From positions 1-64,000 of the forward strand of contig NZ_QGGQ01000015.1 in assembly GCF_003148665.1 (NCBI RefSeq): 64,000 nucleotides of DNA, given 5' to 3'. The stretch's first letter is position 1; each line of letters starts with the position of its first letter. The notes beneath the pieces are model-generated. The model was not told the DNA's origin. It did no database searches and saw only the letters and a list, made by a program, of their open reading frames with translations. This stretch comes from Maribacter polysiphoniae. Its GTDB lineage: Bacteria > Bacteroidota > Bacteroidia > Flavobacteriales > Flavobacteriaceae. Both the position numbers and the translations under genes were made by a program. Positions 14,603 to 33,136 of this stretch are shown one piece after another.

Positions 14603-14675
14603 CACGGGAGGAGAGACTCGAACTCCCGACACCTGGTTTTGGAGACCAGTGCTCTACCAACTGAGCTACACCCGT
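14603..14675 (-). tRNA. tRNA-Trp (CCA anticodon)
   Basis: The minus strand folds into a cloverleaf of 73 bases: D-stem GCTC/GAGC, anticodon stem CTGGT/ACCAG with loop CTCCAAA (anticodon CCA), T-stem GGGAG/CTCTC with loop TTCGAGT. The acceptor stem ACGGGTG/CTCCCGT has six pairs and one U-U mismatch at 6-67. The discriminator base is G, correct for Trp. The 3' CCA is not encoded. It lies between tuf and secE. Confidence 0.95.
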
Positions 14676-14690
14676 TTATATTTACATTGA

Positions 14691-14718
14691 AAGGTATCCC
14701 GCTAGAGCGGGACACCTT
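14691..14718 (-). other. Strong hairpin between tuf and tRNA-Trp
   Basis: On the minus strand AAGGTGTCCCGC pairs over 12 positions (one G-T) with GCGGGATACCTT around a TCTA loop. It follows the tuf stop by 24 bases. There is no T-run after it, so it is a poor terminator. It more likely marks or protects the processed 3' end of tuf mRNA before the downstream tRNA is cut out. Confidence 0.65.
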
Positions 14719-14742
14719 ATATGTAAACTAGTATTCTAAGAT

Positions 14743-15930
14743 TTAATCTATAATCTTGGTTACCTGACCGGCACCAACTGTTCTACCACCTTCACGGATA
14801 GCGAAACGTAATCCTTCACTTAAAGCGATAGGCTGAATCAAATCAACAGTTATCGTTAAGTTATCACCAGGCATAACCATTTCAACACCACTAGGAAGAC
14901 TAATGTTACCAGTAACATCGGTAGTTCTTACGTAGAATTGTGGACGATAGTTATTATGGAATGGTGTGTGACGACCACCTTCTTCTTTTTTAAGGATATA
15001 AACCTCTGCTTCAAATTTAGCATGTGGCTTAACAGAACCTGGCTTACAAATTACCATACCTCTGCTTATCTGTGCTTTTTCAATACCTCTTAACAAGATA
15101 CCTACGTTATCACCAGCTTCACCTCTATCCAATATCTTACGGAACATTTCAACACCAGTAATGGTAGAAGACAATTTCTCTGCACCCATACCAATGATAT
15201 CAACTGCATCACCAGTATTGGCAACACCAGTTTCGATACGACCTGTAGCAACAGTTCCACGACCAGTAATAGTGAATACATCCTCAACAGGCATTAAGAA
15301 ATCCTTCTCAACATCCCTTTTTGGCAACTCGATCCATGAATCAACAGCATCCATCAATTCCATAACGGTATCAACCCATTTTTGCTCACCGTTAAGTGCA
15401 CCAAGGGCAGATCCTGAAATAACAGGTCCATTATCACCATCATACTCATAGAAAGAAAGCAATTCCCTTACTTCCATCTCAACAAGCTCTAAAAGCTCCT
15501 CATCATCAACCATGTCAACTTTATTCAAGAAAACAACGATTCTAGGAATACCTACCTGACGACCTAATAGGATGTGCTCACGAGTTTGTGGCATTGGACC
15601 ATCTGTTGCAGCAACAACCAAGATAGCACCATCCATTTGGGCAGCACCAGTTACCATGTTCTTTACGTAATCCGCGTGACCAGGACAGTCAACGTGTGCG
15701 TAGTGACGGTTTGCTGTTTGGTACTCAACGTGAGAAGTATTAATGGTTATACCCCTTTCTTTTTCTTCAGGAGCGTTATCGATAGAATCGAAACTTCTCA
15801 ATTCAGAAAGTCCTGCATTTGCCAATACCGTAGTAATAGCAGCAGTTAATGTAGTTTTACCGTGATCCACGTGTCCAATAGTGCCTATATTTAAGTGCGG
15901 TTTGGAACGATCGAAAGTTTCCTTTGCCAT
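14743..15930 (-). CDS. tuf: Elongation factor Tu
   Basis: GTPase that delivers aminoacyl-tRNA to the ribosome; 395 residues. GTP-binding motifs are [12 protein letters not shown] (residues 19-30), DCPGHADY and NKVDM. Domains 2 and 3 are complete, with the aminoacyl-tRNA-binding segments [12 protein letters not shown] and [17 protein letters not shown]. The gene is directly downstream of four tRNA genes and upstream of tRNA-Trp, secE and nusG, so it is probably co-transcribed with the tRNAs from the promoter at 16789-16818. It is the only tuf copy in the window. Confidence 0.99.
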
Positions 15931-15987
15931 TTTAAATGAATTTTAATCTTAGTTTATATATTAGTGTACAATTATATGCCTTAATTG

Positions 15988-16059
15988 AGCCAACGACGAG
16001 ATTTGAACTCGTGACCTCTTCCTTACCAAGGAAACGCTCTACCCCTGAGCTACGTCGGC
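15988..16059 (-). tRNA. tRNA-Thr (GGT anticodon)
   Basis: Cloverleaf on the minus strand: acceptor GCCGACG/CGTTGGC, D-stem GCTC/GAGC, anticodon stem TTTCC/GGAAG with loop TTGGTAA (anticodon GGT), T-stem ACGAG/CTCGT with loop TTCAAAT. Discriminator T; CCA not encoded. It lies 57 bases ahead of tuf. Confidence 0.96.
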
Positions 16060-16354
16060 TTGTTGGGTTCTCTTGGTTGATGCTAAACGTTTACTGATAA
16101 ACAACATCGAAATTACAACAAACGCCAACCCAAGGTTTTCGAGTCCTAGACCAAAACTTAACCGACCTGCACCAGAATCAATCAAAAATTGACCCCGTCC
16201 TTTCTTCACTACCCAAAGAACATATCAAAGAAAATAGCTTCATTTGACATTCAGGCGGAAGAACGGGCTACCTTCGACTACGCTCAGGACTGACTTCTCA
16301 CCCCATATTCCACAATCGAAATGAACACACATTCATTATCCTGTGAAATATTAG
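16060..16354. other. Long spacer inside the tRNA cluster
   Basis: Nearly 300 bases separate tRNA-Thr(GGT) from tRNA-Gly, far more than the other gaps in the array (about 25-130 bases). I find no ORF, tRNA or promoter pair in it. At about 16274-16293 it contains CCTTCGACTACGCTCAGGA, which resembles a short dispersed intergenic repeat core common in flavobacterial genomes. The rest looks unstructured. Confidence 0.5.
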
Positions 16355-16427
16355 AGCGGGAGACCGGGTTCGAACCGGCGACATTCAGCTTGGAAGGCTG
16401 ACGCTCTACCAACTGAGCTACTCCCGC
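16355..16427 (-). tRNA. tRNA-Gly (TCC anticodon)
   Basis: Cloverleaf on the minus strand: acceptor GCGGGAG/CTCCCGC, D-stem GCTC/GAGC, anticodon stem TCAGC/GCTGA with loop CTTCCAA (anticodon TCC), T-stem GCCGG/CCGGT with loop TTCGAAC. Discriminator T; CCA not encoded. Confidence 0.96.
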
Positions 16428-16558
16428 ATTTTATATTTCAAAATTTCAATTTCAAGACCCTTTTACCGATCTTACCCAAAGTCCGGACTTCCCGAACCCG
16501 TTATTCAATACAACCCAGAAATCAACACTTCCAGATTAACTTTTTTTTTAAAATATAG

Positions 16559-16640
<82 letters not shown>

Positions 16641-16664
16641 AATCCATATTTTAAAGAACTTTTG

Positions 16665-16738
16665 AGCCGATAGAGGGACTCGAACCCACGACCTGCTGAT
16701 TACAAATCAGCTGCTCTAGCCAGCTGAGCTACATCGGC
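16665..16738 (-). tRNA. tRNA-Thr (TGT anticodon)
   Basis: Cloverleaf on the minus strand: acceptor GCCGATG/TATCGGC, D-stem GCTC/GAGC, anticodon stem GCTGA/TCAGC with loop TTTGTAA (anticodon TGT), T-stem GTGGG/CCCTC-type with loop TTCGAGT. First gene of the tRNA-tuf transcript, 22 bases after the T-run of the hairpin at 16761-16787. Confidence 0.95.
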
Positions 16739-25850: not shown

Positions 25851-26429
25851 ATGAAAAAGAATGTATTAGCATTGACCTTAGCCGTAGTATTTGGCTTTAC
25901 AGCATCAGCAACCGAACCCAAAAACGAGGAAAAGAAAGAGGTGAAAACCGATGAAAGCTCAGTCGCTTGGAAAGCCTACAAAGTAACCGGGTCACATAAC
26001 GGAACGGTTGATTTAAAAAGTGGCGCATTAGTATTCGACGAAGGCAAACTCATTGGAGGGGAATTCACCGTTGATATGACTTCCTTGGTCAGTACCGATT
26101 TAGAGGGGGAATATAAAGGTAAATTGGAAGGCCATTTGAAATCGGACGATTTCTTTGGTGTCGAAAAACACCCCACATCAACATTGGTATTCACGAAAGT
26201 AGTGCCAAATGGTAAAAATTCCTATGAAGTAACCGGGGACCTAACCATAAAAGGGTTTACCAAACCAGTGACCTTTGACGTATCCATATATGGTAGCAAA
26301 GCCACTGCCACCATGAAAATCGATAGGGCCGAATACGATGTGCGTTACGGTTCAGGCAGCTTTTTCGATAATTTAGGGGATAAAACAATTTACGATGAAT
26401 TTGATCTTGTTGTAGATTTGGTATTTTAA
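25851..26429 (+). CDS. YceI-family secreted lipid-binding protein
   Basis: A protein of 192 residues with a signal peptide (MKKNVLALTLAVVFGFTASA, cleavage near residue 20) and one YceI domain, a lipocalin-like beta barrel that binds isoprenoid lipids. Conserved parts are GGEFTVDMTSL, HLKSDDFFGVEKHPTS and the end YDEFDLVVDLVF. The mature protein starts with a charged KNEEKKEVKTDE linker. Exact ligand unknown. It is the second and last gene of the marR transcript, closed by the terminator at 26451-26488. Confidence 0.93.
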   Translation: MKKNVLALTLAVVFGFTASATEPKNEEKKEVKTDESSVAWKAYKVTGSHNGTVDLKSGALVFDEGKLIGGEFTVDMTSLVSTDLEGEYKGKLEGHLKSDDFFGVEKHPTSTLVFTKVVPNGKNSYEVTGDLTIKGFTKPVTFDVSIYGSKATATMKIDRAEYDVRYGSGSFFDNLGDKTIYDEFDLVVDLVF

Positions 26430-26450: not shown

Positions 26451-26488
26451 AACTCCGGCTGTTTTTATAACATCCGGAGTTTTTTTTA
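26451..26488 (+). terminator. Intrinsic terminator after the YceI gene
   Basis: AACTCCGG pairs with CCGGAGTT across a 15-base loop, followed by a run of eight T. It isolates the marR-yceI transcript from the trp promoter, which begins 12 bases later. Confidence 0.88.
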
Positions 26489-26499
26489 CAAAAAACGTA

Positions 26500-26530
26500 T
26501 TTGATGTTTAAAAAATCATTTCTATATTTG
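26500..26530 (+). promoter_or_regulatory. trp operon promoter
   Basis: TTTG (26500-26503), a 19-base spacer, then TATATTTG (26523-26530) match the Bacteroidota housekeeping promoter (TTG-N19-TAnnTTTG) at every specified base. This is the best promoter in the window. The predicted start, 4-7 bases after the -7 element, falls almost on the leader-peptide ATG at 26536, so the leader mRNA should have almost no 5' untranslated region. Confidence 0.85.
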
Positions 26531-26535
26531 ATGCA

Positions 26536-26592
26536 ATGAAAAATAACATAACAAATACTTGGTGGTGGAGTAACTTACGGAAAACGTCGTGA
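26536..26592 (+). CDS. trpL: trp operon leader peptide (18 aa, three tandem Trp)
   Basis: A short ORF reads MKNNITNTWWWSNLRKTS and stops at TGA 26590. Codons 9-11 are three consecutive TGG. Three Trp in a row in an 18-residue peptide directly between the trp promoter and a terminator is the hallmark of ribosome-mediated attenuation. The peptide should have no function after translation: the position of the ribosome on it sets the downstream RNA fold. The ATG sits at or near the predicted transcription start, so it may be read as a leaderless message. An ATG at 26531 opens only a two-codon ORF. Confidence 0.9.
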   Translation: MKNNITNTWWWSNLRKTS

Positions 26593-26641
26593 GCGAAGCA
26601 TCATTGTAGTAAAACTATATATAAGGCTTGTCTATCACGAC
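26586..26641 (+). promoter_or_regulatory. trp antiterminator fold
   Basis: Three nested pairings form a structure exclusive with the terminator: GTCGTGA (26586-26592, overlapping the leader stop codon) with TCACGAC (26635-26641); AAGC (26596-26599) with GCTT (26626-26629); and TAGT (26607-26610) with ACTA (26614-26617). The first two capture part of the 3' arm and part of the 5' arm of the terminator. A ribosome stalled on the Trp codons leaves these bases free; one that reaches the stop codon covers them. Confidence 0.7.
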
Positions 26642-26652
26642 AAGCCTTTTTT
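26623..26652 (+). terminator. trp attenuator terminator
   Basis: AAGGCTTGTC (26623-26632) pairs perfectly with GACAAGCCTT (26639-26648) around a TATCAC loop, with six T at 26647-26652. It lies 17 bases ahead of trpE and must be bypassed for operon expression. Confidence 0.92.
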
Positions 26653-26669
26653 AATTCTATAAACTGATC

Positions 26670-28067
26670 ATGGACTACCAATTTAAATCACATCATAAAA
26701 AAATCCTAGCAGATACCATTACCCCTGTCAGTGTTTATTTAAAGATACGGGACCGATTTCCGAACAGTATTCTTTTGGAAAGTAGTGACTATCATGCCAA
26801 CCACAACAGTTTTTCCTATATCTGTTGCAACCCCATTGCATCGATCAAGATTGAGAATGAAACCATTGTGGAGCAATTTCCCGACGGCAAAATCACGACG
26901 AAGCATATCGACCCTGAAACCGATGTGGCACAGACCATACATGATTTCAGTCTAAAATTCCAAGCCGATGAAAATTCGTTCAAGTTCATAAACAATGGTT
27001 TGTTTGGCTATATGGCCTATGATGCGATACGGTATTTTGAGGACATCAACATCAGCAAAAAAGAAGATGCACTGAATATCCCTGACATATATTATGCTGT
27101 TTACCAAAACATCATCGCAATCAACCATTTTAAGAATGAGGCGTACATCTTTGCCCATTGTTATGAAAAGGAAAGTAATATTGCGGAAATTGAACAAATC
27201 CTAAATGTCAAGAACTTTGCGTCCTATAACTTCAACAAAGAAGGGGAACCTACTTCAAACCTTAAGGATGAAGAATATAAAGCGCATGTTGACTTGGCTA
27301 AAAAACATTGCCAAAGGGGTGATGTTTTCCAACTGGTGCTGTCCAGAAGATTTTCACAAGGATTCAAAGGCGATGAATTCAATGTCTATAGGGCCCTTCG
27401 CTCTATAAACCCTTCCCCCTATCTGTTCTATTTTGATTATGGTGATTTCAAGATATTCGGAAGTTCCCCAGAGGCCCAATTGATCGTAAATGAAGGCAAG
27501 GCCGAAATACATCCCATAGCCGGCACCTTCAAAAGAACCGGTAATGATGAAAAAGATGCAGCATTGGCCAAAGAGTTGACCACTGATGACAAGGAAAACA
27601 GCGAGCATGTGATGTTGGTCGATTTGGCCAGAAACGATTTAAGTCGACACGGGAATATGGTACGTGTTGACAATTATAGGGAAGTACAGTTCTTTTCCCA
27701 TGTAATCCATTTGGTATCCAAAGTAACCGGACAAAAGAAAAAGGATATCACCACCATGAAAGTCGTGGCCGACACCTTTCCGGCAGGGACATTAAGTGGC
27801 GCCCCAAAACATATGGCCATGCAACTCATAGAAAAATATGAAAGAACGAACAGGTCATACTATGGCGGTGCCATCGGTTTTATGGATTTCAAGGGAAACT
27901 TCAACCACGCCATAATGATCCGTACTTTCTTAAGTAAAAACCACCAGTTACATTACCAGGCGGGTGCAGGATTGGTAGCCGCCTCGAATCCCGAAAATGA
28001 ATTACAGGAAACATATAACAAACTAGGAGCATTGACCAAGGCCTTGGAAATTGCGGAAACCATCTAA
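26670..28067 (+). CDS. trpE: Anthranilate synthase component I
   Basis: Converts chorismate and ammonia to anthranilate, the first committed step of Trp synthesis; 465 residues. The Trp feedback-binding signature LLES-X10-S is intact (residues 35-38 and S49), so allosteric inhibition by Trp is expected. The catalytic chorismate-binding domain contains LVDLARNDLSRHG and PAGTLSGAPK. It is the first structural gene of trpEGDCFBA, 17 bases after the attenuator. trpG follows as a separate gene 22 bases after its stop, so the two subunits are not fused. Confidence 0.98.
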   Translation: MDYQFKSHHKKILADTITPVSVYLKIRDRFPNSILLESSDYHANHNSFSYICCNPIASIKIENETIVEQFPDGKITTKHIDPETDVAQTIHDFSLKFQADENSFKFINNGLFGYMAYDAIRYFEDINISKKEDALNIPDIYYAVYQNIIAINHFKNEAYIFAHCYEKESNIAEIEQILNVKNFASYNFNKEGEPTSNLKDEEYKAHVDLAKKHCQRGDVFQLVLSRRFSQGFKGDEFNVYRALRSINPSPYLFYFDYGDFKIFGSSPEAQLIVNEGKAEIHPIAGTFKRTGNDEKDAALAKELTTDDKENSEHVMLVDLARNDLSRHGNMVRVDNYREVQFFSHVIHLVSKVTGQKKKDITTMKVVADTFPAGTLSGAPKHMAMQLIEKYERTNRSYYGGAIGFMDFKGNFNHAIMIRTFLSKNHQLHYQAGAGLVAASNPENELQETYNKLGALTKALEIAETI

Positions 28068-28089
28068 AATTTCCAAAATCAAGATGATT

Positions 28090-28659
28090 ATGAAAAAAAT
28101 ATTGGTAATTGACAACTATGACAGCTTCACCTATAATCTAGTCCATTATCTAGAGGACCTGGATTGTGAAGTCATTGTAAAAAGAAACGACCAACTCACT
28201 TTGGAGGAGGTTGATGCCTACGATAAAATCGTTTTATCCCCAGGCCCGGGCATCCCGGATGAAGCAGGTTTACTTAAAGCGATTATCGCTAAATACGCCC
28301 CGACCAAGAGTATCTTTGGTGTTTGCCTTGGCCAACAGGCCATAGCCGAAGTATTCGGTGGCTCCTTGATAAACCTCGACGAGGTATACCACGGTATCGC
28401 CACAAATATAAAGGTGGTAAAGGATGATCTTTTGTTTAAGGGACTACCGAGGGAAATTGAAGTAGGCCGCTATCATTCCTGGGTGGTATCCCCGGATATC
28501 CCTGAGGTTTTGGAAGTAACCTCTATTGATGAAAACGGACAAATAATGTCAATACGACATAGGCATTTCGACGTATCCGCCGTACAATTCCACCCAGAAT
28601 CCGTATTGACACCAAAAGGAAAAACCATTTTACAAAACTGGTTAACAGAAAAAGCATAA
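28090..28659 (+). CDS. trpG: Anthranilate synthase component II (glutamine amidotransferase)
   Basis: Class I glutamine amidotransferase of 189 residues supplying ammonia to TrpE. The catalytic triad is visible: C79 in GVCLGQQAIAE, and His and Glu in VQFHPESVLTPKG. The start is set at the ATG giving MKKILVIDNYDSFTYN, the usual N-terminus; the frame is open further upstream from a TTG at 28051 and an ATG at 28084, but those add residues not seen in the family. The protein could also serve aminodeoxychorismate synthase, as TrpG/PabA proteins often do. Confidence 0.96.
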   Translation: MKKILVIDNYDSFTYNLVHYLEDLDCEVIVKRNDQLTLEEVDAYDKIVLSPGPGIPDEAGLLKAIIAKYAPTKSIFGVCLGQQAIAEVFGGSLINLDEVYHGIATNIKVVKDDLLFKGLPREIEVGRYHSWVVSPDIPEVLEVTSIDENGQIMSIRHRHFDVSAVQFHPESVLTPKGKTILQNWLTEKA

Positions 28660-28687
28660 AATAGCTACTGGAACAAATTCAGCGTAT

Positions 28688-29680
28688 ATGAAAGATATTT
28701 TAAACAGACTGATCAATCACGACATCCTCGCCAAGGAGGATGCCAAAACAGTTTTGGTCAATATTGCCAAAGGAGAATATAATACAAGTCAGATCGCCGC
28801 TTTTTTAACGGTGTATATGATGCGAAGTATAACCATCGAGGAACTGGAAGGTTTTCGAAATGCACTTTTAGATTTATGCTTGGCCATTGACCTGTCCGAA
28901 TACAACCCAATTGATTTATGTGGTACGGGTGGGGACGGCAAGGACACCTTCAACATCTCAACATTGGCTTCCTTCGTTACCGCTGGAGCCGGTGTACACG
29001 TTACCAAACATGGTAATTATGGGGTCTCTTCAAAATGTGGCAGTAGTAATGTCATGGAATTCCTCGGTATAAAATTCAGTAATGATGCCGATTTTCTAAA
29101 AAAATCCATCGATGAGGCAGGAATCTGTGTATTGCATGCCCCATTGTTTCACCCTGCCATGAAAAACGTGGCCCCAATCCGTAGGGAATTGGCTGTGAAA
29201 ACCTTTTTCAATATGCTAGGGCCCATGGTCAACCCCGCTTTCCCCAAAAACCAGATGGTCGGGGTCTTTAATTTGGAGTTGGCCCGTATGTATGGTTACC
29301 TATACCAGAATACCGATAAAAACTTTACCGTATTGCATGCTTTGGATGGTTATGATGAAATTTCGTTGACCGGAGCCACAAAGACTATTTCCAACAATTC
29401 AGAAGGCATGTTACAACCCTCTGATTTTGGGGTCAAAGCCGTAAAACAAGAACAGATTGTAGGAGGGGAAACCATTGAACAATCGGCAAAAATATTTATC
29501 GACATCCTGGAAGGAAAAGGAACGGTAGCCCAGAACAATGTTGTCTGTGCAAATGCCGGAATCGCCATTGCCACAGTGAATGGCATTAGTCCAAAGGAAG
29601 GTTTTGGGAAGGCAATGGAATCATTATTGTCGGGCAAAGGATTGAAAGCCTTGAAAAAACTGCAAGCCTTAAGCGTTTAA
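28688..29680 (+). CDS. trpD: Anthranilate phosphoribosyltransferase
   Basis: Transfers phosphoribose from PRPP to anthranilate; 330 residues, normal length. The PRPP-binding glycine-rich motif CGTGGDGKDTFNIST is intact, as are HGNYGVSSKCGSSNVME and the AGICVLHAPLFHPAMKNV segment that helps bind anthranilate. Third structural gene of the operon, 28 bases after trpG and 11 before trpC. Confidence 0.98.
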   Translation: MKDILNRLINHDILAKEDAKTVLVNIAKGEYNTSQIAAFLTVYMMRSITIEELEGFRNALLDLCLAIDLSEYNPIDLCGTGGDGKDTFNISTLASFVTAGAGVHVTKHGNYGVSSKCGSSNVMEFLGIKFSNDADFLKKSIDEAGICVLHAPLFHPAMKNVAPIRRELAVKTFFNMLGPMVNPAFPKNQMVGVFNLELARMYGYLYQNTDKNFTVLHALDGYDEISLTGATKTISNNSEGMLQPSDFGVKAVKQEQIVGGETIEQSAKIFIDILEGKGTVAQNNVVCANAGIAIATVNGISPKEGFGKAMESLLSGKGLKALKKLQALSV

Positions 29681-29691
29681 TAGATACGAAA

Positions 29692-30474
29692 ATGAATATT
29701 CTCGATAAAATAGTTAAAGACAAACGGATTGAGGTAAATCTGCGAAAAGGGTTGATTCCCTTATCCCAACTGGAGGCCTCTGTCCTTTTTGATCGCGATT
29801 CCGTTTCTTTGGCCCATGCGCTACGGAATAGTAGAACAGGGATAATTGCGGAACACAAGCGGCGTTCTCCTTCCAAATCGGTCATAAATCAGGATTTGAA
29901 TGTCCAGGATGTTGCAAAAGGCTATGAACAAGCAGGTGTTTGCGGCATGTCCGTGTTGACAGACGGCAAATATTTCGGAGGTTCCTTGGATGATTTGCTG
30001 CTGGCCCGGGCAGCTGTAAAAATGCCGTTGTTACGGAAAGAATTCATTATTGACACCTATCAAATAATCGAAGCAAAGGCCTATGGTGCCGATGTCATAT
30101 TATTGATTGCGGCCATATTATCCAAAGCCGAAATAAAAAGGTTTTCCGAATTGGCCAAAAGTTTGGGCTTGGATGTCTTGTTGGAAGTACACAATGAGGA
30201 GGAACTACACAAATCCATCATGCCCAGTTTGGACATGTTGGGAGTAAACAATCGCAACCTAAAAACGTTCGAGGTCAGTTTGGAAACCAGTAAGGAATTA
30301 TCTGAAATCATCCCTGATGATTTTGTAAAAGTATCGGAAAGTGGCATTAGCAGTATTGAAGCCATCAAGGAACTAAGACCCTATGGGTATCAAGGTTTCC
30401 TCATTGGTGAGAATTTTATGAAAACCGGGAATCCCGGCACAGGTGCAACTGAATTCATCAATGCCCTTAATTAA
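29692..30474 (+). CDS. trpC: Indole-3-glycerol phosphate synthase
   Basis: TIM-barrel enzyme of 260 residues that closes the indole ring of CdRP. Catalytic segments are visible: IIAEHKRRSPSKS near residue 51 (essential Glu and Lys), LRKEFIID, VLLEVHNEEEL, GVNNRNLKTF and VSESGI. TrpF is a separate gene here, unlike the fused TrpCF of enterobacteria. It starts 11 bases after trpD and ends 9 bases before trpF. Confidence 0.98.
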   Translation: MNILDKIVKDKRIEVNLRKGLIPLSQLEASVLFDRDSVSLAHALRNSRTGIIAEHKRRSPSKSVINQDLNVQDVAKGYEQAGVCGMSVLTDGKYFGGSLDDLLLARAAVKMPLLRKEFIIDTYQIIEAKAYGADVILLIAAILSKAEIKRFSELAKSLGLDVLLEVHNEEELHKSIMPSLDMLGVNNRNLKTFEVSLETSKELSEIIPDDFVKVSESGISSIEAIKELRPYGYQGFLIGENFMKTGNPGTGATEFINALN

Positions 30475-30483
30475 TTACAAACA

Positions 30484-31146
30484 ATGAGCCAATACCACAA
30501 AAACACAGACACTTCCAAAAGGGAACCCCTTAGGATAAAAGTCTGTGGTATGAATCTTAACACTGCTGAAGTTGGGGCTTTACAACCAGATTATTTGGGC
30601 TTTATTTTCTGGGAACCCTCAAAAAGGAATTTCACTGGCAAACCAGCGGTACTTCCCCATAGTATTAAAAAGGTCGGTGTTTTTGTCGATGCCTATATCG
30701 AAGAGATCATCGAAATGGTCAATACCCATCAACTTTTGGCAGTTCAATTACATGGTAAGGAGACCCCCGAATTCTGTCGTATGCTAAAAAGTGAATTGAA
30801 AGGGATCGATATCATCAAAGTGTTTTCTGTTAAAGAAACATTTGATTTTAAAGCACTTGAGCCTTTCGAATCGGTATGTGATTACTTCCTTTTCGACACT
30901 AAAGGTAAATTACCCGGTGGGAACGGCTATAAGTTCAATTGGCGTATTTTAAGGAATTACCCATCTAAAAAACCATATTTCCTAAGTGGCGGGATTGGTT
31001 TGGGGGATTTGGAATCGATCAAGGAATTTATAAAGCAACCCGAATCAAACCTTTGCCACGCCATTGATGTGAACAGCAAATTTGAAATTAAACCGGGCCT
31101 TAAGGACATCGGTACATTAAAAGAATTTATAAAGAAATTAAAATGA
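30484..31146 (+). CDS. trpF: Phosphoribosylanthranilate isomerase
   Basis: Converts phosphoribosyl-anthranilate to CdRP; TIM barrel of 220 residues. The catalytic Cys lies in KVCGMN (near residue 22) and the catalytic Asp near [16 protein letters not shown] and AIDVNSKFE form the phosphate-binding end. It has an N-terminal extension of about 17 residues ([16 protein letters not shown]) before the usual start, so a later start cannot be excluded. Its stop overlaps the trpB start by 4 bases (ATGA), indicating translational coupling. Confidence 0.96.
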
Positions 31147-32324
31147 ATTATAACGCAGACGAAAAAGGCTACTATGGCGAGTTTGGAGGGGCTTTTATAC
31201 CCGAAATGCTATATCCCAATACTGAGGAATTACGCCAGAATTACATCCAGATCATGGAAGAACCTTCGTTCAAAAAGGAATTCGACCAGTTATTAAAGGA
31301 TTATGTTGGGCGACCTACCCCATTATATCACGCAAAAAGACTTTCTGAAAAATACAACACAAAAATATATCTTAAAAGGGAAGATCTGTGCCATACAGGC
31401 GCCCATAAGGTAAACAATACCATTGGGCAGATACTCATGGCCAAAAAGTTGGGCAAAACCAGGATCATCGCCGAAACTGGTGCCGGCCAACATGGTGTTG
31501 CCACTGCCACGGTTTGTGCTTTAATGGGAATACAATGTGTAGTGTATATGGGTGAGATCGATATTGCACGACAAGCGCCGAATGTCGCCCGAATGAAAAT
31601 GTTAGGTGCCGAAGTGCGCCCAGCATTATCAGGAAGTAGAACATTAAAGGATGCTACCAATGAGGCTATCCGCGATTGGATCAATAATCCGGTAGATACG
31701 CATTACATCATTGGCTCTGTGGTTGGACCACACCCCTACCCTGATATGGTGGCCCGATTTCAATCCGTGATTTCCAAAGAGATAAAATCACAGTTAAAAG
31801 AAAAAGAAGGGACTGAAAACCCCGATTATGTAGTGGCTTGCGTTGGTGGTGGCAGTAATGCCGCTGGTGCCTTTTATCATTATTTGGATAATCCCAATGT
31901 TGGAATCATAGCGGTAGAAGCCGCAGGTAAAGGCATCGACTCCGGCGAAAGTGCCGCTACTTCGGTCTTAGGGAAGGTCGGTATCATTCATGGTAGTAAA
32001 ACCTTATTGATGCAAACCCCAGACGGACAAATAACAGAACCCTATTCCATATCAGCCGGACTCGATTACCCCGGTGTAGGTCCCATGCATGCCCATTTAT
32101 ACCGGTCTGGCCGCGGTGAGTTTGTTTCAATTACCGATGACGATGCCATGAAGGCTGGATTATTGTTATCGAAGTTGGAAGGTATTATCCCAGCCATCGA
32201 AAGCTCACATGCCCTGGCCCTATTAGAACATAAAACATTTAAACCGGACGATATCGTGGTTATAAACCTATCAGGTCGTGGAGATAAGGACCTCGATACG
32301 TATATCAACTACTTTAAGCTTTAG
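31143..32324 (+). CDS. trpB: Tryptophan synthase beta subunit
   Basis: PLP enzyme of 393 residues that condenses indole with serine. The PLP-binding lysine is K89 in [13 protein letters not shown]. The phosphate-binding GGGSNAAG loop and the GAGQHGVA segment are intact. The N-terminus [14 protein letters not shown] is the standard TrpB1 type that works with an alpha subunit. Start overlaps trpF by 4 bases. A 50-base gap with a hairpin separates it from trpA, the only sizeable gap from trpC onward. Confidence 0.98.
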
Positions 32325-32339
32325 TCCTTTTTTTTGACG

Positions 32340-32357
32340 TTCCCACCCAAGTGGGAA
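32340..32357 (+). repeat. Short palindromic element between trpB and trpA
   Basis: TTCCCAC and GTGGGAA form a 7-bp perfect stem with a CCAA loop, preceded by a T-rich stretch. It has no T-run after it, so it is not a terminator. It resembles the small dispersed intergenic hairpins found in many bacterial genomes. It could protect the upstream mRNA from 3' decay or tune trpA expression. Confidence 0.6.
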
Positions 32358-32374
32358 TGAAAAACTTACACAAG

Positions 32375-33136
32375 ATGAACAGAATAAACCAAAAACTCGA
32401 AGAGGACAAAAAAATCCTTTCCATTTATTTTACCGCTGGATATCCAAAACTGAACGACACGGTGAAAATCATTCAAGATCTGGAAAAAAATGGTGTTGAC
32501 CTGATCGAAATCGGATTGCCTTTTTCAGACCCACTGGCAGACGGACCTACCATTCAAAAAAGTTCAACGGCGGCTTTAAAAAACGGGATGCATACCGAAT
32601 TACTTTTTGAACAGTTAAAGGATATTCGTAAAACGGTATCCATACCCTTGATCATTATGGGCTATTTTAATCCCATATTCCAGTATGGGGTCGAAGCCTT
32701 TTGTAAACGTTGTCAGGAAATTGGGATAGACGGACTCATTCTCCCCGATTTACCCCTAGATGTATACCTAAAGGATTATGAAGCCATTTTTGTAAAATAC
32801 GGACTGGTCAATGTATTTCTTATAACGCCCCAAACCAGTGACAAACGCATTAAGCAGATTGATAATGCTTCCAACGGATTCATCTATATGGTAAGCTCGG
32901 CGAGCACAACAGGAGCCACAACCGGTTTTGGGGAAGAACAAAAAACCTATTTTGGGCGTATTGCGGCACTAAACCTCAACACCCCCCAAATTGTCGGGTT
33001 TGGAATCAATAATGCCGAAACATTTGACCAAGCGACCCAAACCACCGCAGGGGCCATTATCGGCTCAGCCTTTATCAAACATATAACCCAATTTGGGATT
33101 GACACAATCTCCGATTTTATTAAAACCATTCGCTAA
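32375..33136 (+). CDS. trpA: Tryptophan synthase alpha subunit
   Basis: TIM-barrel enzyme of 253 residues that cleaves indole-3-glycerol phosphate and channels indole to TrpB. The catalytic Glu lies in LIEIGLPFSDPLADG and the catalytic Asp in GLILPDLPLD; the phosphate loop is VSSASTTGA. The ATG at 32375 (MNRINQKLEEDKK) is chosen; a GTG at 32351 would begin inside the palindrome and add 8 unusual residues. Last gene of the trp pathway, 3 bases before a small membrane-protein gene that is probably in the same transcript. Confidence 0.97.
   Translation: MNRINQKLEEDKKILSIYFTAGYPKLNDTVKIIQDLEKNGVDLIEIGLPFSDPLADGPTIQKSSTAALKNGMHTELLFEQLKDIRKTVSIPLIIMGYFNPIFQYGVEAFCKRCQEIGIDGLILPDLPLDVYLKDYEAIFVKYGLVNVFLITPQTSDKRIKQIDNASNGFIYMVSSASTTGATTGFGEEQKTYFGRIAALNLNTPQIVGFGINNAETFDQATQTTAGAIIGSAFIKHITQFGIDTISDFIKTIR

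Follow-up and report, generated by a model that had tools for sequence, protein, structure and literature searches.

A Bacteroid-trp leader as the likely ribosome-mediated attenuator of the trp operon of Maribacter polysiphoniae, with lysine-codon relatives in other genomes

How might the trp operon of Maribacter polysiphoniae be made to follow the supply of tryptophan? The question is raised by a locus on contig NZ_QGGQ01000015.1 (assembly GCF_003148665.1), of which positions 1 to 64,000 of the forward strand were analysed; this whole stretch of 64,000 nucleotides (nt) is referred to here as the window. An earlier note on the DNA had proposed a complete ribosome-mediated attenuator ahead of trpE. 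We consider it very likely that the locus is a ribosome-mediated transcription attenuator of the trp operon and a member of the Rfam family Bacteroid-trp. In silico, the elements of such a device were found in the window, together with their conservation and covariation among relatives and a folding behaviour that depends on the state of the ribosome. The parts follow each other as a yceI-like gene, a hairpin with a T-run, a promoter, an 18-codon leader open reading frame (ORF), a terminator of 10 base pairs (bp) and the genes trpE-G-D-C-F-B-A (Table 1).

The trp leader, its family and its pairings

The leader matched the Rfam model RF01692 (Bacteroid-trp) over its full length (1-131) with 69.7 bits against a cut-off of 49; the locus therefore belongs to an already described family, of which it is an ordinary member. 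The match is followed by tryptophan biosynthesis genes, trpE at 26670 and then trpG-D-C-F-B-A. The RF01692 model stops at the 5' arm of the terminator, without the 3' strand of the antiterminator and without the terminator as a whole. The Bacteroid-trp RNA motif is listed by Weinberg et al. 2010 (PMC2864571), the only publication on RF01692 that turned up in the literature searched in full text. The leader RNA folded with a z-score of -4.3, and none of 200 shuffles folded equally well; the fold, the family match and the recurrence of the structure in relatives place the feature beyond chance, and it is real.

The leader ORF with its three Trp codons, the perfect terminator, trpE and the segments GTCGTGA, TCACGAC, AAGC and GCTT all lie where the earlier note had placed them. 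The nested antiterminator that it drew is the fold computed for the window's own RNA in the stalled state, with the inner helix two pairs longer, the TAGT/ACTA pair being present as part of a 6-bp helix.

Table 1. Features of the trp leader region and operon in the window
Feature	Position	Strand	Basis or remark
yceI-like gene (YceI family)	25851-26429		Upstream of the trp promoter
Hairpin CTCCGG/CCGGAG with T-run	26453-26487	+	Sequence; 3' of the yceI-like gene, sets it apart from the trp promoter
-33 element TTTG, Bacteroidota promoter	26500-26503	+	Sequence; consensus from PMC6847099 and PMC7366714
-7 element TATATTTG	26523-26530	+	Leader ATG 5 nt downstream; start predicted at 26535 or 26536
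RF01692 Bacteroid-trp match	26516-26632	+	69.7 bits, cut-off 49
Leader ORF MKNNITNTWWWSNLRKTS, 18 codons and stop TGA	26536-26592	+	
Three Trp codons (sensor), codons 9-11	26560-26568	+	WWW in 134/136 leaders
Protector hairpin CUUACGG/UCGUGAG	26574-26593	+	Fold; hides the 5' antiterminator strand without a ribosome; weak support from comparison
Antiterminator 5' strand GUCGUGA	26586-26592	+	Overlaps the leader stop codon
AAGC, inner antiterminator helix with GCUU (26626-26629)	26596-26599	+	Folding; 73.6% of cells paired
Innermost 6-bp hairpin UGUAGU/ACUAUA (26605-26610 with 26614-26619)	26605-26619	+	Folding; weaker comparative support
Intrinsic terminator, perfect 10-bp stem AAGGCUUGUC/GACAAGCCUU (26623-26648) with T-run	26623-26652	+	Terminator scan; covariation
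Antiterminator 3' strand UCACGAC	26635-26641	+	Terminator loop and first three bases of the 3' arm
trpE (anthranilate synthase I)	26670-28067	+	PF04715, PF00425
trpG, trpD, trpC, trpF, trpB, trpA	28087-33136	+	

RF01692 matches were found in 208 of 299 genomes of the family (E <= 1e-3) and in 42/395 genomes of a phylum-wide sample. A comparative set of 136 leaders, the window included, was assembled from 56 leaders found in searches and 80 that were fetched, mostly best-scoring ones, so that it leans towards typical members. Absence of a Trp-codon leader from relatives would have spoken against the earlier proposal; the leaders read WWW in 134 cases and WW in the other two, the first Trp being codon 9 in 125/136. 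All 136 precede trp genes, with trpE directly downstream in 127 (tblastn). The remaining nine were assigned by eye from resemblance to window proteins, and are followed by a small gene and then trpE (three), by trpB (four) or by trpD (two).

Pairing was assessed in an alignment of 45 leaders below 87% identity, which included two odd ones, L128 and L129. The terminator was paired in 99.8% of cells, with both-sided change in 8/10 pairs. The outer antiterminator helix GUCGUGA/UCACGAC was paired in 91.4% of cells, compared with 7.3-57.6% for slid versions of the same helix, and this core of the proposed pairing is thereby upheld in relatives; support is weaker for the inner pairings, with 73.6% of cells paired for AAGC/GCTT and 62.2% and 41.5% for the part with TAGT/ACTA. 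Both-sided change was seen in three of the seven antiterminator pairs, in six cells (shuffled mean 1.4, 1/500 shuffles as high), and the covariation score was 0.137 versus 0.110 for shuffled alignments (2/500 as high), related sequences being known to inflate such shuffles. Compensation is also visible by eye in L124 (GTCGCAA with TTGCGAC) and, outside the alignment, in L156 and L158 (CGTAATC/GATTACG) and L174 (GCGATGA/TCATCGC). RNAalifold predicted the terminator alone from the 45 rows. Comparison thus supports a putative mutually exclusive antiterminator, and its inner helices less strongly.

A model built from the 45 leaders, R1, reached beyond RF01692. It gave hits in 280/299 family genomes at E <= 1e-3, 11 of them weaker than 1e-6, leaving 269/299 at the accepted threshold of E <= 1e-6, a count that is partly so by construction (many genomes supplied leaders), includes versions with Lys codons and was inspected only in part. 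The threshold was set there because R1 also hit three further places in the genome of the window (L143-L145, E 2.4e-4 to 9e-4) that are probably false, resembling ordinary gene-end hairpins without a matching leader. R1 hits were then fetched from 30 of the genomes lacking an RF01692 match. A WW or WWW leader was present in 28; among these L173 yielded no terminator call, and the other 27 were folded. The hits left over, L171 and L172, are without Trp codons and are taken up below.

Ribosome position, folding order and rival explanations

The antiterminator motif was recognised in 132/136 leaders, and in 123 of these the distance from the last Trp codon to the start of its 5' strand is 18-19 nt. 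The stop codon falls in three main places, which put the motif start at -8, -3 or +6 relative to it (-8 to +11 overall), and by this spacing the strand is near enough for a terminating ribosome to be expected to cover it. To model the states we folded each transcript only as far as the third base of the terminator 3' arm, masking the leader from its start to 10 nt past the A-site codon, and scored the antiterminator as formed at >=4 expected bp. It formed in 129 of 136 leaders with the ribosome stalled at the first Trp codon, in 131 at the second and 131 at the third, in a single leader at the stop codon and in 42 without a ribosome; with the middle region shuffled it formed in 140/680 masked folds. 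This contrast between the stalled state and the stop codon fits, in silico, the logic of the earlier note, in which a ribosome at the stop masks the strand and a stall on Trp frees it. In the 27 further loci the antiterminator formed in 25 when stalled at Trp, in two at the stop and in eight without a ribosome.

We infer from these patterns a sequence of events that extends to transcription start, ribosome stalling, kinetics and read-through. RNA polymerase would start at the leader AUG or one base before it, and a ribosome would load at the 5' end. Where charged tRNA-Trp is scarce, the ribosome would stall on UGG UGG UGG, breaking the protector fold and freeing GUCGUGA...AAGC. The antiterminator could then zip from the inside out, beginning with the UGUAGU/ACUAUA hairpin, continuing with AAGC-GCUU and ending with GUCGUGA-UCACGAC, and would already have engaged part of the terminator 5' arm, the loop and the opening bases of the 3' arm when the remainder of that arm appears, allowing polymerase to read into trpE. 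With plentiful tryptophan, the ribosome at the stop codon would cover GUCGUGA...AAGC and the terminator would form; without any ribosome, the protector hairpin would mostly hide the strand, making termination the default.

Several observations weigh against this account. The antiterminator pairing of 91.4% barely exceeds the mean of 90.0% for shuffles, owing to conservation of the strands themselves, and most of the pairing is plain conservation. The first pair of the 7-bp helix fails in 17/45 rows, and some changes are uncompensated, so that the compensation expected by the earlier note was seen for the terminator and for part of the antiterminator. In L128 and L129 strand 2 pairs with the terminator 5' arm, not with the loop and 3' arm, and L130 carries the same sequence there; antiterminator topology therefore varies within the family. 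Pairing of the Rfam-like protector fold, at 69% of cells, is not clearly above that of slid versions. Of the 27 further loci, 16 have WWW, L154 and L170 form no antiterminator when stalled, and L165 and L166 keep theirs at the stop codon. Lastly, in full-length RNA the probability of the terminator exceeded 0.5 in 136 leaders without a ribosome, 135 stalled at the first Trp, 130 at the third and 136 at the stop (n = 136).

A switch at equilibrium was rejected on this last result, since the terminator is the preferred structure of full-length RNA for almost every leader whatever the state, the stalled ribosome included. The switch would therefore have to be kinetic and set by the order of emergence. 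On the model, each antiterminator helix can form while the remainder of the 3' arm is still to emerge, and in silico the position of the ribosome would pick the fold before the terminator closes and not at full-length equilibrium.

The rival that survives best concerns the tryptophan-rich state and is possible, if clearly the less likely course: a protector fold similar to the consensus structure of Rfam would re-form, and it would be this, not the masking of strand 2 by a ribosome at the stop codon, that causes termination. RNA without a ribosome does fold as protector plus terminator, the antiterminator then being present in only 42/136, and the Rfam consensus is a fold of the protector kind. 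The weak advantage of the protector pairs over slid versions and the closeness of strand 2 to the stop codon in the 132 leaders count against it; re-forming of the protector and masking at the stop may act together.

A chiefly translational role of the leader ORF, through ribosome loading or re-initiation at trpE and not through termination, is very improbable. One study (PMC4833913) proposed that leader genes lying near structural genes enhance translation, the Bacteroidetes showing a peak at 11-14 bp, and put the minimum for attenuators at about 40 bp. Here 77 nt separate the leader stop from the trpE ATG, a strong terminator lies between them, and terminator and antiterminator covary.

Control by another tryptophan sensor, with incidental Trp codons, is less probable still: TrpR, TRAP and T-box systems control trp genes elsewhere, but TrpR and TRAP had no match in the window's genome at E <= 0.001 (positive controls were found), a T-box was not among the six Rfam matches of the window at gathering scores, and WWW is kept almost throughout. 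Ribosome-mediated attenuation as set out in the earlier note is thus supported as the best explanation. That note did not foresee the known family, the promoter class, the predicted leaderless start or the need for a kinetic switch.

Promoter, predicted start and neighbouring features

The promoter ahead of the leader had been described as consensus-like. A promoter is present, but, as a correction, it is of the Bacteroidota type and not sigma-70, since TTTG, a 19-nt spacer and TATATTTG fit the consensus TTTG/TANNTTTG reported for that phylum (PMC6847099, PMC7366714). In Flavobacterium johnsoniae the -7 element spans -12 to -5, with its last G at -5 (PMC6847099); transferred to the window, this predicts a start at 26535 or 26536 and a leader mRNA with 0-1 nt before the AUG. 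The trp leader mRNA would thus be leaderless, a prediction made from promoter spacing.

Among the 136 leaders, 130 have TAHHTTTG within 70 nt upstream, compared with a background of 0.03 per 70 nt. The spacing between box and ATG has modes at 5 nt (21/136 loci, the window included) and 17-19 nt (54 loci), and 14 of the 27 additional folded loci show a spacing of 4-5 nt. Such a spacing is no genome-wide habit: among 39 sites of the form TATATTTG-N(2-28)-ATGAA in the window's genome (11 in the reversed control) there was no peak, and two had 5 nt. Leaderless mRNAs are otherwise rare in Bacteroidota, with 5.5% given for F. psychrophilum in the pertinent section of one study (PMC9723704). The tree of TrpE fragments was poorly resolved (121 columns, 9/121 inner branches starred, fewest changes 10), and we therefore make no claim on gain or loss of the leaderless state.

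A sigma-70 scan of the window gave 43 sites versus 38.4 expected and is uninformative for Bacteroidota. A perfect E. coli-type TTGACA-17-TATAAT lies within trpG (28109-28137, plus strand); it differs from the reported Bacteroidota consensus and is probably a chance match. The hairpin behind the yceI-like gene did not appear in the output of the terminator scan, which had a loop limit of 8. Further off, five tRNA genes lie on the minus strand at 14603-16738.

Gene order behind the attenuator differs at some of the related loci. By eye, it stands before trpB in L031, L036, L054 (the terminator of which was placed by hand) and L127, and before trpD in L129 and L130; behind L129 follow trpD, trpF and trpB (L141). 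The piece L140, which lies on the wrong side of its leader, was left out. In 3/136 loci (L137, L138 and L139, corresponding to L091, L106 and L112) a gene of about 100 aa stands between attenuator and trpE, where it would come under Trp control; its product reads like what we take to be a GIY-YIG nuclease.

Lysine-codon relatives and comparison with known systems

The two R1 hits without Trp codons, L171 and L172, carry the same attenuator hardware before an aspartate kinase gene, with leaders ending in NKKDKKVHLRRTS and KQKDKKIYLRRMS. We examined 110 aspartokinase loci, a non-random set made up of the 30 best of 106 genomes by the L172 protein and the 80 best matches to the two attenuator-bearing enzymes. 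R1 elements were present in 7/110 at E <= 8e-7 (7/100 and 0/10): L176 (= L172), L177 (= L171), L178 and L212-L215, the last four being from Flavobacterium sp. HSC-61S13, Paenimyroides ummariense, P. baculatum and Chryseobacterium cucumeris. The element lies about 30-45 nt before the aspartokinase start. The leaders read K-K-G-K-K, R-K-G-K-K, K-K-D-K-K or K-Q-K-D-K-K, and three start with GTG or TTG. Their -7 box lies 17-25 nt upstream, and the Lys versions are therefore not leaderless. AT-rich genomes have many Lys codons; the Lys reading is therefore based not on composition but on codon constancy, spacing and the enzyme.

In six of the seven loci exactly 18 nt lie between the end of the last Lys codon and TCGTGA, a spacing like that of the Trp codons; L178 has a changed strand, GTGATGA, at 17. 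Folding of the seven, done without a shuffled control, gave the antiterminator in all of them with a stall at the last Lys (at least 5.8 bp); a stall at the first Lys gave 3.4 bp in L214 and 4.0 in L213. With the ribosome at the stop codon the antiterminator was lost in 6/7 (L214 keeps 4.4), and L176 also forms it without a ribosome (6.8). The tail hardware aligns to that of the Trp leaders with scores of 22-43, compared with a best shuffled score of 2-10. No Lys locus had an Rfam match at the cut-off, the nearest being L212 with 46.9 versus 49, and the lysine riboswitch RF00168 had no match in the seven loci at E <= 0.01.

Three of the enzymes, among them that of L212, pass the aspartate kinase model TIGR00657, their best match being lysine-sensitive aspartokinase 3, below its cut-off. 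The seven enzymes form one clade in a quick tree (SH-aLRT 98, one change, 0/500 shuffles as low), inside which two long branches, L177 and L178, meet. The gene lysA (TIGR01048, above cut-off) follows aspartokinase in L212 and L177, two of the six loci with DNA to show it; in the DNA fetched for L213, L214, L215 and L178 it was not seen, and L176 ends too soon. We consider it likely, if some way from assured, that the attenuator is a cassette with swappable sensor codons and that Bacteroid-trp hardware was coupled once, with the Lys codons K-K-G/D-K-K, to aspartokinase in Flavobacteriaceae and Weeksellaceae; because lysA is present in two of six loci and not in all, this is graded lower. If true, a Lys-codon attenuator would act where other bacteria use a lysine riboswitch. 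The literature searched in full text, which leaves most subscription journals outside its scope, yielded no Lys-codon leader of an aspartokinase. The window's genome has no aspartokinase of that kind at E <= 1e-60 and probably lacks the Lys version.

Genomes G022 and G041 have no close TrpE (best identity 21% and 24%); G022, which is 88% complete, keeps the Lys attenuator. The aspartokinase genes of Sphingobacterium (L216, L217 and L220) are preceded, about 68 nt before the start, by a different strong hairpin with a T-run (ATGCGGCACAAAA...), possibly another control element or the end of an upstream gene. In F. psychrophilum, pheA and hisG are reported to be preceded by structured 5' elements (PMC9723704).

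Beyond the catalogue entry, the present analysis offers an antiterminator, a likely folding order, a promoter class, a predicted leaderless start and, in other genomes, relatives with Lys codons. These relatives suggest that evolution can retarget the attenuator by about five codon changes with the RNA switch kept, a directly testable claim on how a regulator originates.

Set beside known systems, the window shares phylum and family with RF01692 Bacteroid-trp, to whose model our comparison adds the antiterminator pairing and the whole terminator. In the trp attenuator of E. coli, region 2 pairs with region 3. The window is unlike it in that the antiterminator takes as its 3' strand the loop of the terminator and the beginning of the 3' arm, and reaches the 5' arm through a short inner helix, and its genome is unlike E. 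coli in having no TrpR match. The likeness lies in a leader peptide with consecutive Trp codons and in mutually exclusive terminator and antiterminator, as outlined in a general description (PMC7298713). The trp operon of F. psychrophilum is preceded by a Bacteroid-trp element that was likened to the E. coli trp leader in the portion of PMC6414381 concerned with it; it is of the same family, and antiterminator, predicted start site and comparative analysis are added here. For the predicted leaderless start, a precedent is trpL/rnTrpL of Sinorhizobium meliloti, before trpE(G), where the transcript begins directly with the trpL ATG (PMC7298713), but in another phylum and, for the window, with a leaderless state predicted from promoter spacing only. 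Finally, lysC of Shewanella is given as a lysine riboswitch gene in the part of PMC2659441 that treats it; the seven aspartokinase loci would share with such RF00168 control a lysine-responsive regulation of aspartokinase, and would exert it instead by a Lys-codon leader on trp-attenuator hardware.

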